NCBI RefSeq assembly: GCF_022095675.1
Contig: NZ_JAHYSG010000146.1
Coordinates: 1 to 27,519 of the forward strand
Direction of reading: 5' to 3'
DNA from: Dactylosporangium sp. AC04546
GTDB lineage: Bacteria; Actinomycetota; Actinomycetes; Mycobacteriales; Micromonosporaceae
Length of the DNA stretch: 27,519 bases
Shown here: positions 4,414-7,801 of the stretch, in pieces
Numbering within the stretch: the first letter of the stretch is position 1
Layout of the letters: each line of letters begins with the position of its first letter
Notes under the pieces: model-generated
Databases searched by the model: none
What the model was told of the DNA's origin: nothing
The model's input: only the letters and a program-made list of their open reading frames with translations
Program-made: the position numbers and the translations under genes

Positions 4414-5304
4414 CTACGTCACGAGCCGCAGCCGGCGGGCGGCGACGCCGATCGTCACCCGCTGACCCCAGGCCAGCTCCAGGCGGTCGGCCTCCAGGCC
4501 GTCGGCGAACACCACCAGGCGCTCGCTCTCGCCGGACAGCTCCAGGCGCTCGTCCGGGCCGAGCCGGCCGGCGGTGAGGGTGACGCCGGTCGCCGGCGAC
4601 GGCCAGGCCTCCCGCACGAACCAGGTCAGCGCGGCCTCGCCGGGCGCGGGCCGCGCCGGGGCGTCGGCGCGCTCGCGGGCGATCGACGAGCACCAGCCGG
4701 TGGCGCCGGTGCCGGTGCCGACCACCACGCCGGAGGACGAGTGCCGCTCGCGCCCGCCGTCCGGGGTGGAGACGGTGTACCGCGCGGACTGGTGCGTGGG
4801 GTGCCCGAAGTACACCTCGTTGAGGCCGATCAGCTCCTGGCCGTCGTCGAGCCGGGCGGACACCATGGTCCGCAGCTCGGCGTCCACAGTGGACAGCCGG
4901 GGCAGGAGCCGCGCGGCCGCCGGCGGGGCGTGGCGGACCAGGACGCCGGGGTTGCGCTCCGGCTCCGGGTTGACGCCGAGGACCGGCTGGCCGTCGAGGT
5001 ACTTCGCCACGTTGGCGACGAGCCCGTCCTGCCCGACAGCGACGACGACGTCCTCCGGCGCGAACAGGAACCGGGACAGGTCCTCGCGGTCCAGCCGGCC
5101 CCGCCGCCAGTCGGCCGGGACGGCCGCGCCCACCGTGGTGAGCGCGGCCTCCAGGGCCCGGTGACGGGCCTCGACCTCGGCCAGGTCGCGGCCCCGCTGG
5201 CGCAGGAAGTAGGCCGCGGCGGCGCGGGTGCCGTGGCGCGCGAGCAGCTCGTCGAGCTCGCTGCGCCGCGACACCAGCACCACCCGCGGTGCCAGGGTGC
5301 TCAT
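4414..5304 (-). CDS. NAD-kinase-like protein with variant GQDG motif
   Basis: A 296-residue protein with the layout of the NAD kinase fold. VVVAVGQDG (residues 86-94) replaces the usual GGDG but keeps the aspartate; LNEVYFG at 161-167 supplies the family NE pair (Asn162, Glu163); GTGTGATGW at 196-204 corresponds to the glycine-rich nucleotide loop. True NAD kinases phosphorylate NAD to NADP in the cytoplasm. With GQDG, and residues 1-80 unlike a typical NAD kinase N-terminus, activity is plausible but not assured. The ATG at 5304 overlaps the SPFH stop (ATGA), so the two are translationally coupled and probably work together. Control is likely by the dyads upstream of the SPFH gene. A longer in-frame reading upstream only shadows the SPFH gene. 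Confidence 0.85.
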   Translation of the reverse strand: MSTLAPRVVLVSRRSELDELLARHGTRAAAAYFLRQRGRDLAEVEARHRALEAALTTVGAAVPADWRRGRLDREDLSRFLFAPEDVVVAVGQDGLVANVAKYLDGQPVLGVNPEPERNPGVLVRHAPPAAARLLPRLSTVDAELRTMVSARLDDGQELIGLNEVYFGHPTHQSARYTVSTPDGGRERHSSSGVVVGTGTGATGWCSSIARERADAPARPAPGEAALTWFVREAWPSPATGVTLTAGRLGPDERLELSGESERLVVFADGLEADRLELAWGQRVTIGVAARRLRLVT

Positions 5305-6359
5305 CGCGACAGCCGCCCGAGCAGGTTGGTGACCACGTCCGGGGTGACCGTCAGCTGGCCGATCTCCGGCAGCTGGCCCGCCAGCTCCTTGAGGGCGAGG
5401 GCCTGCAGGACGGCCGGCGGCAGGTCGCGGTACGCGGCGAGGCGGCTCGCCTCGGCCTCCGCCTCGGCCAGGCCGACGGACCGTACGCCCTCGGCGCGCG
5501 CCGCGCTGCGCAGCGTGTCGGCCTCGGCCTCGGCCGCCGCCGCGATCCGGGCCCGCTCGGCCGCGCCGGCCGCGGCGACCTGCGCGCGCTCCTCGGTCGC
5601 CTGGGCGACGACGAGCGCGGCGGACGCGTCGAGCTCGGCCTTGCGCCGGGAGTTGGCGCCGTGCTGCTCGACGAGCTGCTGCTCGCGCCGGGCCAGCTCG
5701 ATCTTGTTCTGCAGCTCGTTCTCGGCGATCGCGCGCTCCTGCTCGACCGCGCGGGCCCGCCGGCTGTACGTGGCCCGGTCGGCCTGCTCCTGCACCGCCT
5801 CCCGCGTCGGGGTCTGCAGCGCCCGCTCCAGGTCCGGCTCGGGCCGGATCGCCACGACCCGGGCGCTGACCACGCTGACGCCGGTGTCGGCCAGCCGCGG
5901 GTCGCCGCCGAGCGCCGCGGTGACCGCCTCGCGGACCGGGGCGATGCCGGCCGTGAGCGCCTCGGTGAGCGCCAGGCGGGCCAGCAGGTCCAGGGCCGGC
6001 TGCTGGGCCAGCTCGGCGAGCAGCGTGGCGACCTGGTCGAGCGGCTGGCCGCGCCACCGGCCGTTGCCGGGGTCGACGGAGAAGTCGAGGCGCTCGGCGG
6101 CGGTCGCCGGCGCGCTGATGCGGTAGGTGACGGTGGCCTGGACGGTGACGTCGGCGAAGTCGCTGGTCCGCGCGTGGAACAGCAGCGGCAGCTCGCGGTC
6201 GTCGATCGGCACCTCGGACAGCACGGCGGTCAGCGGGCGGTACCAGAACGACTGGCCGATGCCCTCGTGCCGGATCCGCCCCTGGACGTGGTGGCGCACC
6301 CAGCTGGTCGGCGCCCCGCGCAGGTGGCGCAGGAAGAAGCGGCGAGTCACGTCCGCCAT
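5301..6359 (-). CDS. SPFH/band-7 domain protein, no obvious membrane anchor
   Basis: A 352-residue SPFH (stomatin/prohibitin/flotillin) protein. Residues about 35-190 form the beta-rich SPFH part, for example FADVTVQATVTYRIS. Residues about 195-310 are a long charged, alanine-rich coiled coil (AVEQERAIAENELQNKIELA and onward), and the tail ends in PDVVTNLLGRLSR. Such proteins oligomerise at membranes and scaffold partners. No hydrophobic N-terminal anchor is visible, so membrane contact would be peripheral or through a partner. The ATG at 6359 has GGGAGGT six bases upstream. It is the first gene of the pair with the NAD-kinase-like protein and is transcribed away from the NUDIX regulator; the perfect dyad at 6379-6397 sits just upstream of its ribosome-binding site, where the promoter must be. 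Confidence 0.88.
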   Translation of the reverse strand: MADVTRRFFLRHLRGAPTSWVRHHVQGRIRHEGIGQSFWYRPLTAVLSEVPIDDRELPLLFHARTSDFADVTVQATVTYRISAPATAAERLDFSVDPGNGRWRGQPLDQVATLLAELAQQPALDLLARLALTEALTAGIAPVREAVTAALGGDPRLADTGVSVVSARVVAIRPEPDLERALQTPTREAVQEQADRATYSRRARAVEQERAIAENELQNKIELARREQQLVEQHGANSRRKAELDASAALVVAQATEERAQVAAAGAAERARIAAAAEAEADTLRSAARAEGVRSVGLAEAEAEASRLAAYRDLPPAVLQALALKELAGQLPEIGQLTVTPDVVTNLLGRLSR

Positions 6360-6378
6360 GGTGGACCTCCCGGTAAGT

Positions 6379-6397
6379 TATCGTCAGGCTGACGATA
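6379..6397. promoter_or_regulatory. Perfect 19-bp operator-like palindrome, site 1
   Basis: TATCGTCAGGCTGACGATA has two perfect 9-bp arms around one central base. It lies 20 bp upstream of the SPFH start codon and overlaps a possible -10 box (GATAAC on the minus strand). A neighbouring NrtR-type regulator makes it a likely binding site, probably for repression. Confidence 0.75.
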
Positions 6398-6412
6398 TTC
6401 GCCTGAACCCTT

Positions 6413-6431
6413 TCTCGTCAACGTGGTGATA
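6413..6431. promoter_or_regulatory. Imperfect copy of the same operator, site 2
   Basis: TCTCGTCAACGTGGTGATA matches site 1 at 13 of the 16 half-site positions with the same 3-bp spacer. Its centre is 34 bp from that of site 1, about three helical turns. Its right half contains GGTGAT, the likely Shine-Dalgarno of the NUDIX gene (start 6437), so protein bound here could block its own synthesis. Confidence 0.6.
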
Positions 6432-6436
6432 AATAC

Positions 6437-7102
6437 ATGACATCGTTCGCCGTCACCGTCGACCTGGTGCTGCTCACGATCCGCGACGGCGCCCTGAGCG
6501 CGCTGCTCATCCGGCGCGCGATCCCGCCGTACCGGGGCGACTTCGCGCTGCCGGGGGGCTTCGTGCTGCCGGAGGAGGACCTGGACGCGGCCGCCGCCCG
6601 CGAGCTGGCCGAGGAGGCCGGCATCGCCGCGCCCGGCCACCTCGAGCAGCTGGCCAGCTACGGCACGCCGGGCCGGGACCCGCGCGGCCGGGTGGTCACG
6701 GTGGCGTACCTCGCGCTGCTGCCCGACGCCCCGGCGCCCACGGCCGGCAGCGACGCCGCCGGGGCCGAGTGGGTGCCGGTCAGCGCGCTGCCGGCCCTCG
6801 CGTTCGACCATGCCCGCATCCTCGCCGACGGGGTCGAGCGGGCCCGGGCGAAGCTGGAGTACACCCCGCTCGGGGCCGCCTTCTGCCCGCCGGAGTTCAC
6901 GATCGCCGAGCTGCGGCAGGTGTACGAGGCGGTCTGGGACACCCGGCTCGACCCGCGCAACTTCCACCGCAAGGCCACGTCGACGGAGGGCTTCGTCGAG
7001 CCCACCGGCCGGTCCACCGCCGGCGAGCGGGGCCGGCCGGCCCAGCTGTACACGCGCGGCGCGGCCACGGTCCTCTACCCCCCGATGCTGCGGTCGCGGT
7101 GA
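6437..7102 (+). CDS. NUDIX hydrolase / NrtR-type transcriptional regulator
   Basis: A 221-residue protein with an intact 23-residue Nudix box at residues 41-63 (G-x5-E-x7-R-E-L-x-E-E-x-G-I), so it can still be a hydrolase. The C-terminal part (about 140-221, with PPEFTIAELRQVYEAVW and NFHRKATS) is the winged-helix domain found in NrtR regulators. NrtR proteins use the Nudix fold to sense ADP-ribose or related NAD breakdown products and control NAD metabolism (established for the family). The divergent NAD-kinase-like/SPFH pair and the two dyads between the genes fit that role. The ATG at 6437 has GGTGAT six bases upstream. Whether it retains catalysis or only senses ligand cannot be told from the sequence. 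Confidence 0.9.
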   Translation: MTSFAVTVDLVLLTIRDGALSALLIRRAIPPYRGDFALPGGFVLPEEDLDAAAARELAEEAGIAAPGHLEQLASYGTPGRDPRGRVVTVAYLALLPDAPAPTAGSDAAGAEWVPVSALPALAFDHARILADGVERARAKLEYTPLGAAFCPPEFTIAELRQVYEAVWDTRLDPRNFHRKATSTEGFVEPTGRSTAGERGRPAQLYTRGAATVLYPPMLRSR

Positions 7103-7156: not shown

Positions 7157-7162
7157 CCCGTG

Positions 7163-7801
7163 ATGATACGTGCCGTGCTGCATGAGCCGTGTGTACGGCC
7201 CGGCACCCTGGTCCCCGGTGAGGTGCACGTGCGCGCCGGGGCCACGGCGCTGCCGCCCGGCGAGGTCACGCTGAGCGTCGAGACGCGCTCCGGCGTCGCC
7301 GTCATCCGGCACCGGATCACGGTCGCGTCGCCGGTGCCGGCCGGCCGTGCCCGCTCGGTGCCGTTCCTGCTGCCGCTGCCGTGGGAGACGCCGCTCACCC
7401 GGCCGATCCCGGCGGTCTCGGTGCTGCTGCGCACGGCGGCGTTCGGCGAGTCGGCGGTCGAGCCGATCGACGTCCACCCGCTGCTGGGGCACCAGCGCGT
7501 GCTCGACGCCGTCCGGCGGCTCGGGTTCCGGCTGGTCGACGCGTCGCTGGAGACCGGCCCGCTGCCCGGGGTGCGCCGCTCGGTGCCGTTCCACCAGGAG
7601 TTCACGTTCCGGTCGGGGGCCGGGGCGGAGCTGCGCGTGGTGACCGTCGCCGGCCCGGCGGCACTCGACGTGGTCGCCCGGCTCGGCAGCGCTACGCTGA
7701 CGTTCGCGGTCCGCGCCGGAGCAGACCCGTTCGCGACGCTGCGGGCCTGGCTTCCGATACCAGATCGTGACGCAACCGACGACCACCTTCACCCCGTCTA
7801 A
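7163..7801 (+). CDS. Spo0M-like arrestin-fold protein
   Basis: A 212-residue protein resembling the Spo0M (sporulation-control) family: an arrestin-like beta-sandwich with VRPGTLVPGEVHV near the N-terminus, RSVPFLLPLPWETPLT in the middle, and the family segment HPLLGHQRVLDAVRRLGFRL followed by PFHQEFTFR. Spo0M proteins are cytoplasmic and affect sporulation or morphology in Bacillus by a poorly defined mechanism. It is somewhat shorter than the roughly 250 residues of the Bacillus protein. Start choice: ATG 7163 sits 6 nt after TACTGT and would be leaderless; the GTG at 7160 is an alternative one codon earlier. The last 16 codons are unusually rich in A/T-ending codons (7 of 16), hinting that regulatory sequence for the next gene is embedded there. 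Confidence 0.7.
   Translation: MIRAVLHEPCVRPGTLVPGEVHVRAGATALPPGEVTLSVETRSGVAVIRHRITVASPVPAGRARSVPFLLPLPWETPLTRPIPAVSVLLRTAAFGESAVEPIDVHPLLGHQRVLDAVRRLGFRLVDASLETGPLPGVRRSVPFHQEFTFRSGAGAELRVVTVAGPAALDVVARLGSATLTFAVRAGADPFATLRAWLPIPDRDATDDHLHPV

Follow-up and report, generated by a model that had tools for sequence, protein, structure and literature searches.

An NrtR-family regulator encoded in the window, the 27,519-nucleotide stretch of Dactylosporangium sp. AC04546 DNA analysed here, probably represses both its own gene and a divergent pair of genes, encoding an SPFH protein and an NADK2-like protein, through two operators that lie between them. Computation shows that the dyads are conserved and where they lie, that they are linked to the regulator gene both in cis and in trans, that a predicted promoter overlaps them, and which families the proteins belong to. 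In this proposal, a regulator whose family responds to NAD-related molecules would control an SPFH–NADK2-like pair that is uncharacterised and occurs in many actinobacterial families. As operators and promoter are proposed at base resolution, the trigger of the pair is directly testable.

The control region is the 77-bp gap (6360-6436) between the SPFH gene on the minus strand and the NUDIX gene on the plus strand. The features of the locus are:

6437..7102, plus strand: NUDIX and NrtR_WHD regulator, 221 aa (PF00293, PF21906), Nudix box intact
5301..6359, minus strand: SPFH / Band_7 protein, 352 aa (PF01145), with a long C-terminal helix in the model
4414..5304, minus strand: NAD-kinase-like protein, 296 aa, its start overlapping the SPFH stop codon
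6379..6397, no strand: dyad 1, predicted NrtR-type operator, TATCGTCAGGCTGACGATA, perfect, with 9 of 9 arm positions self-complementary around one base
6413..6431, no strand: dyad 2, predicted second operator, TCTCGTCAACGTGGTGATA, imperfect, with 5 of 8 positions self-complementary
6371-6366, minus strand: likely SPFH Shine-Dalgarno, GGGAGG, 7 bp from dyad 1
6392..6421, minus strand: predicted SPFH promoter, TTGACG (6421-6416), 18 bp, TATCGT (6397-6392)

The gene identities given by the initial annotation (NUDIX with an NrtR winged helix, SPFH, NAD-kinase fold) agree with the domain profiles and the fold model. Its account of the dyads also held on recount: dyad 1 is perfect, dyad 2 is identical to its arms at 13 of 16 bases, and the centres (6388 and 6422) are 34 bp apart, corresponding to 3.24 turns at 10.5 bp per turn. 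As had been described, dyad 1 adjoins the SPFH ribosome-binding site, with GGGAGG 7 bp off, and dyad 2 covers the region of the NUDIX Shine-Dalgarno, the ATG being at 6437. The genes cydA (4347-2947) and cydB (2933-1929) begin 66 bp past the NADK-like gene on the same strand and are possibly an extension of the SPFH–NADK operon. An SPFH–NADK–cydAB unit was rejected as a general target: of the neighbourhoods read, those of the window and of D. sucinum alone have cydA after the pair. A Spo0M-family gene (7160-7801) lies immediately 3' of the NUDIX gene and is retained in a sister genome (locus L035).

With up to 3 mismatches allowed, the window has a single match to the 18-letter dyad pattern, and 100 shuffles have none. 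Dyads of any sequence (8-bp arms, spacer 1 or 3) number 4, and five shuffles of the window gave 3-7, so that a lone perfect dyad is unremarkable in this GC-rich stretch; the case for the dyads rests on position and conservation, not on the window alone. Across the 13-Mb genome, the wider consensus TWTCGTCANNNTGACGAWA (up to 2 mismatches) is found at one place besides the window, as often as its reversed control; at this extra place (L072) there is no SPFH, NADK or NUDIX match. Weaker sites are common, since the bare core TCGTCANNNTGACGA has three exact places and a total of 102 at up to one mismatch (reversed control, 23), and weak extra targets may be among these looser matches. The two other exact cores (L001, G000:C8:36889; L002, G000:C8:40463) lie 3.6 kb apart on one contig.

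Conservation of the dyad pair and its overlap with a predicted SPFH promoter

The initial annotation had proposed searching actinobacterial genomes for the motif, and this search found the dyads conserved upstream of SPFH–NADK and NUDIX genes. At E<=0.001 the NUDIX query matches 58 of 61 relatives, the window genome included, with other Nudix proteins and paralogues among the matches; the NADK-like query matches 18 at 1e-20. SPFH adjoins the NUDIX gene in 16 of 17 loci (L005-L021, of which L005 is the window; absent at L012). Of these 16 intergenic regions, 14 have the 34-bp spacing and L019 has 36 bp; at L010 the second dyad falls outside the extracted region, and an apparently identical record (L102) has the 34-bp spacing.

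For a wider set, genome contigs were scanned with an NADK alignment, a procedure blind to the DNA motif, and of the loci it found, at least 538, the best 80 were taken. Dyads were scored in the 79 of these 80 with an aligned SPFH start, L113 being excluded because it lies at a contig end. The score is 15-17 of 18 in 74 of the 79 loci, whereas the top score in 1580 mononucleotide shuffles of SPFH upstream regions is 13. Two dyads, both scoring at least 12, are found in 66 of the same 79 loci, with spacings of 34 bp (50 loci), 33 bp (nine), 45 bp (five, all Micrococcaceae) and 27 bp (two, both Acidimicrobiales). Nine Lentzea loci have the SPFH-proximal dyad only (L129, L130, L137, L141, L146, L147, L153-L155). 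The tandem arrangement is therefore not obligatory, as Lentzea keep one dyad and Acidimicrobiales have the 27-bp spacing. By eye, the single-dyad Lentzea loci carry a separate promoter-like sequence upstream of the dyad.

Scans with the motif alone led back to the same genes. A 21-letter pattern matches in 41 of 296 genomes, with none for the reversed control, and of the 30 loci read 29 are SPFH–NADK promoters, with a neighbouring NUDIX gene in 23; the window is not among the matches, as the last two A's of the pattern are missing from it. The exception (L183, G083:C1:439069) is a TTATCGTC-N5-GACGATAA dyad away from SPFH, and the same genome has a second such site at 445508. A looser tandem pattern is found in seven of 396 genomes, five of the seven places being at SPFH–NADK, window included, and the other two (L073, L079) away from SPFH. 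The locus sets of the genome scan and the profile scan overlap (e.g., G002 and L081 are apparently one record). Judged from these comparisons, the dyad pair represents widely conserved probable switch sites in Actinobacteria.

The dyads coincide with the only promoter-like site found between 6250 and 6550, the predicted SPFH promoter (shuffles: mean 0.0, sd 0.1); the match is in the SPFH direction, and the scan gave none for NUDIX. One half of dyad 1 (6392-6397, minus strand) is the predicted -10 TATCGT, the inner half of dyad 2 is the predicted -35, and its outer half is the likely NUDIX Shine-Dalgarno. SPFH transcription is expected, from the usual spacing, to start at about 6385, within dyad 1. 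Among the 79 scored loci (from the best 80 of at least 538), the arrangement TTGAC[AG]-17/18-TAnnnT is present in 63, compared with 7 of 3950 shuffles in which spacers of 16-19 bp were allowed. The five Micrococcaceae have TTGACA as their -35, and TAnnnT, again 18 bp away, lies between the dyads.

Alignment columns were analysed in 49 of the 80 loci, chosen for the 34-bp spacing and for scores of at least 14 in both dyads, so the dyad letters in these columns are conserved partly through selection by score. This applies to TTGACG and TATCGT, which are present in 49 of 49 and most letters of which were scored. The columns are numbered in the SPFH direction, and their dyad 1 is the NUDIX-side site, equivalent to dyad 2 of the window. 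Here, an unscored T at spacer position 11 completes TTGACG in 49 of 49 loci, while the equivalent position in the partner dyad is T in 8 of 49. Similarly, A36 of TATCGT is constant (49 of 49) and its symmetry partner varies (A14 C13 T11 G11). With T11 and A36 constant and their partners variable, conservation of both is better ascribed to the promoter than to the operator.

The initial annotation had read possible cooperativity into the 34-bp spacing, a step that loses its force because promoter geometry, with the -35 in one dyad and the -10 in the other, can account for the distance. The spacing is thus not by itself evidence of cooperativity; cooperative binding can occur but is not required. 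Helical phasing was also set aside as support: although 33, 34 and 45 bp have nearly the same phase, the promoter can dictate the first two and the third was seen in one family. For the imperfection of dyad 2, the simplest explanation is the embedded NUDIX Shine-Dalgarno, a suggestive reading supported by the position of the dyad just before the NUDIX start. In the 61 of the 80 loci with two scored dyads and a divergent NUDIX gene, a TCACC-type outer half (16 loci) goes in every case with a match to 8-10 of 11 letters of a Shine-Dalgarno within the dyad (at least 9 in 15 of the 16), although the GGTGA that defines the type supplies two of these letters by construction; in the other 45 loci the match never exceeds 8. 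In Actinoplanes, an ATG lies inside the operator, as seen by eye.

In the mechanism that we infer, comprising binding, repression, ligand and kinase activity, the 77-bp gap would be a two-operator control region with one NrtR-family dimer per dyad. Occupation of dyad 1 would cover the -10 and the expected start of the SPFH–NADK promoter, and occupation of dyad 2 would cover the SPFH -35 together with, at the other end of the dyad, the ribosome-binding site of NUDIX. The operators overlie the -35, the -10 and the other gene's ribosome-binding site, and their occupation is accordingly expected to act in both directions, blocking SPFH–NADK transcription and causing auto-repression of the regulator. 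The protein would be freed from DNA when its Nudix domain takes up a ligand, for which ADP-ribose or some other nucleotide derived from NAD is the likeliest candidate, and this release would switch on the SPFH scaffold and the NADK2-like kinase. From the sequences compared, it is probable that the NUDIX protein binds the dyads and represses. That it binds them and activates SPFH–NADK instead is unlikely. The -10 TATCGT matches the consensus at four of six positions, so the promoter could be weak, and we infer the direction of control; however, the dyads lie over predicted core promoter elements, in positions typical of repression, and MsNrtR, which has been characterised, represses both its target and its own gene (PMC6800001).

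Association of the dyads with the NUDIX regulator gene

NUDIX is divergent from SPFH in 72 of the 80 loci kept from at least 538, and all 72 have a dyad scoring at least 15. Of the seven other loci with an aligned SPFH start, which lack a divergent NUDIX gene, five score no higher than 13 (L096, L100, L121, L136, L148). The two that retain dyads (L083, L087) are both Plantactinospora, and both genomes carry elsewhere a NUDIX gene (70% identical to that of the window) preceded by two dyads 34 bp apart. In the genus g57, represented by 13 genomes picked for carrying the motif, each genome has one NUDIX homologue (L190-L201, L214) whose aligned start is preceded, at 32-35 bp, by a dyad scoring 15 of 18; in the six of the 13 whose SPFH site was read, there is no NUDIX gene within 1.5 kb on either side. 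Across the 15 genomes examined in which the two genes are unlinked, the dyad thus precedes the NUDIX gene too. There are also counter-examples. Allorhizocola has SPFH–NADK without a dyad, yet a NUDIX gene (63% identical) elsewhere has similar dyads, and a 4.5-Mb genome (G036, locus L049) keeps regulator and dyads in a different gene neighbourhood and gives no NADK match at 1e-20. The initial annotation supposed a single regulator for both directions, and on this cis and trans link, together with the motif scans, such shared action is the most likely arrangement.

The protein itself has the domain architecture of the family, with PF00293 (2.5e-20) and PF21906 (4.9e-16) both above the Pfam cut-offs, and predicted palindromic operators stand at its own gene and at the target. 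Against NF050029, the equivalog model of the ADPR-responsive repressor, it scores 133.5 bits with a cut-off of 400, which makes it a family relative and not an equivalog. Residues were counted and a tree was built for 140 distinct NUDIX sequences, after removal of duplicates, short rows and rows with stops. The recognition helix DxRNFHRK, in which position 173 is P, A or S, is present in all 96 distinct regulators with the operator, and position 181 is Thr in 94 of the 96. PRNFHRK is also found in 10 of the 44 regulators without the operator, but the operator label is strict, and three of these ten are Nocardioides rows marked 'other' that carry TTATCGTC in one half. The agreement is inflated because the regulators are related: in a quick tree the operator label needs six changes against a shuffled mean of 37.5, and the operator-bearing sequences are not one clade. 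Paralogues associated with TAGTC, TGTC, AATGTC or TTCTC-type dyads have the helices RPNFRRK…L, RNFYRK with Q/K at 181, RNFSRK…L or AGNFHRK…L. The pairing of dyad types with recognition-helix differences (L051-L070, L203-L227) points to a possible protein-DNA recognition code.

It is distinctly unlikely, on this evidence, that a different transcription factor binds the dyads and that the NUDIX protein is a neighbouring enzyme. With its Nudix box intact, the protein could be a plain enzyme, and its binding here is predicted. However, it has a winged-helix DNA-binding domain, the dyad precedes its gene at unlinked loci too, five of the seven loci without an adjacent NUDIX gene (from the best 80 of at least 538) have no dyad, and the recognition helix is not the same in paralogues whose dyads are clearly different. 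It is very improbable that the symmetry is incidental and the sequence conserved only as promoter elements. Although promoter hexamers are matched by the inner half-sites, where conservation is higher than in the outer halves, outer-half position 7 and positions 47-49 are constant in the 49 loci (chosen by dyad score), the Micrococcaceae keep dyad 2 with their -10 between the dyads, Lentzea keep the SPFH-proximal dyad without the other, and unlinked NUDIX genes retain the dyad. The perfect inverted repeat could also suggest an RNA hairpin (leader structure or terminator), but the chance of this is negligible, as the predicted SPFH start inside dyad 1 means that the hairpin would not be transcribed whole, and the sole terminator-like site found lies within the SPFH gene (6358-6340) and is not a dyad.

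Family relatives, ligand and paralogues

The binding and repression proposed for the NUDIX protein have precedents in characterised relatives. MsNrtR of Mycolicibacterium smegmatis, the repressor of nadABC and of itself with ADP-ribose as ligand, likewise combines NUDIX and winged-helix domains and is divergent from its target, with a palindrome between (PMC6800001). The two systems differ in the dyad (GTTTTCGA-N7-TCGAAAAC in mycobacteria, TTATCGTC-N5-GACGATAA in the window), in the target (nadABC or SPFH–NADK) and in the Nudix motif, which is intact in the window protein but less conserved in MsNrtR, for which no hydrolase activity was detected (PMC6800001). SoNrtR of Shewanella oneidensis (3gz5/3gz6/3gz8) aligns over residues 6-214 (E 8.7e-28) with the positions of its ligand arginines conserved. 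Its DNA binding is suppressed by ADP-ribose (PMC4666351); the part of the literature consulted describes it as a repressor of NAD-metabolism genes and does not mention an SPFH/NADK pair.

The best-scoring solved sequence for the window regulator is BtAraR of Bacteroides thetaiotaomicron (5bs6, E 3.4e-32), which uses two tandem semipalindromic operators at one promoter, probably with one dimer each (PMC4666351). However, BtAraR responds to L-arabinose, has Gly at the position of SoNrtR Arg98 (Arg in the window regulator), and controls arabinose genes through sites 3 or 42 nt apart, whereas the window sites, 34 bp apart between centres, precede SPFH–NADK. The family of the regulator, operators of the palindromic type and the use of tandem sites within the NrtR family (BtAraR) are already known. 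The NUDIX / SPFH–NADK divergon was described in no paper found by title or abstract; the founding 2008 NrtR regulon study (Rodionov) or Huang 2009 may mention it.

By analogy with these relatives, an ADP-ribose-type ligand may well be the signal. Release by ADP-ribose or a related compound would follow the family pattern, as SoNrtR and MsNrtR respond to ADP-ribose and NdnR of C. glutamicum, a member of the same family, to NAD (PMC4666351; PMC6800001). Arg41 and Arg98 of SoNrtR contact ADP-ribose (PMC4666351); by our own count, with an offset of 3 in chain numbering, they align with R27 and R83, which are present in all 96 operator-bearing regulators and in 44 and 42, respectively, of the 44 others. 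Neither PRNFHRK nor R27/R83 is specific to the group, as both are also found in regulators without the operator.

The Nudix box is intact in 95 of the 96 operator-bearing regulators and in 29 of the 44 others. It is impaired in NAD-type NrtR proteins (PMC4666351), a difference that is no bar to family membership of the window regulator. Since the box is intact, the window protein may hydrolyse its ligand. A self-resetting switch for NAD breakdown, in which the regulator senses ADP-ribose and destroys it at its intact Nudix site, is a more doubtful extension. If it existed, NAD cleavage, triggered for example by stress, ADP-ribosylation or NADase attack, would give a transient pulse of the SPFH scaffold and the NADK2-like kinase, a dedicated actinobacterial response apart from the nadA-linked NrtR. 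A search for a defence system led nowhere, the one weak match being the NUDIX protein (E 0.0079).

The link to NrtR drawn by the initial annotation stands for family membership but probably not for a role in NAD synthesis. In the window's assembly, nadA (G000:C162:8721-9632) is divergent from a NUDIX paralogue (L052, 46% identical) with a broken Nudix box, and the dyad between them, GTTTTCG-N9-CGAAAAC, resembles the mycobacterial NrtR site (PMC6800001). As nadA adjoins this other paralogue, with its different dyad, NAD synthesis is probably not the task of the window paralogue. The listed contamination of the assembly (G000) is 11.54%, so that in principle the contig carrying nadA may be foreign; a second nadA is on G000:C199. 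A broad NAD regulon was rejected as the main reading, with nadA beside the other paralogue and the full consensus at only one further genomic place (up to 2 mismatches). The comparison suggests that NrtR paralogues within one genome may divide their work through different operators, with one group keeping an intact hydrolase motif.

The SPFH and NADK-like proteins

The SPFH protein contains the domain that defines its family (PF01145, 1.1e-11). Its model is weak overall (pTM 0.39), and the SPFH domain of mouse stomatin is matched with a TM-score of 0.80 on target. No transmembrane helix is apparent by eye.

The NADK-like protein falls below the gathering score of Pfam NAD_kinase (14.1 against 25.5 bits), and seven of 13 relatives match this profile at E up to 1 (best 0.00077), so that by sequence it would be a divergent NAD kinase member at best. 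The AlphaFold2 model (pLDDT 89.1) has a predicted NAD-kinase fold. The 50 Foldseek matches listed are NAD kinases, or are titled so or as putative kinases; among them, Pseudomonas NADK has the lowest E-value and human NADK2 the highest TM-score (0.76 on query). A sequence-profile search also gives mitochondrial NADK2 as the best match (1.6e-13). The protein contains NE, TGTG and DG, which we take to be NAD-kinase motifs from the roles usually assigned to them. NAD kinases typically have a glycine-rich GGDG. Human mitochondrial NADK2 (7r4j, 7n29) shares profile match and fold with the bacterial window protein, whose kinase activity is putative, but the GGDG of the comparison is GQDG or GPDG in the window group.
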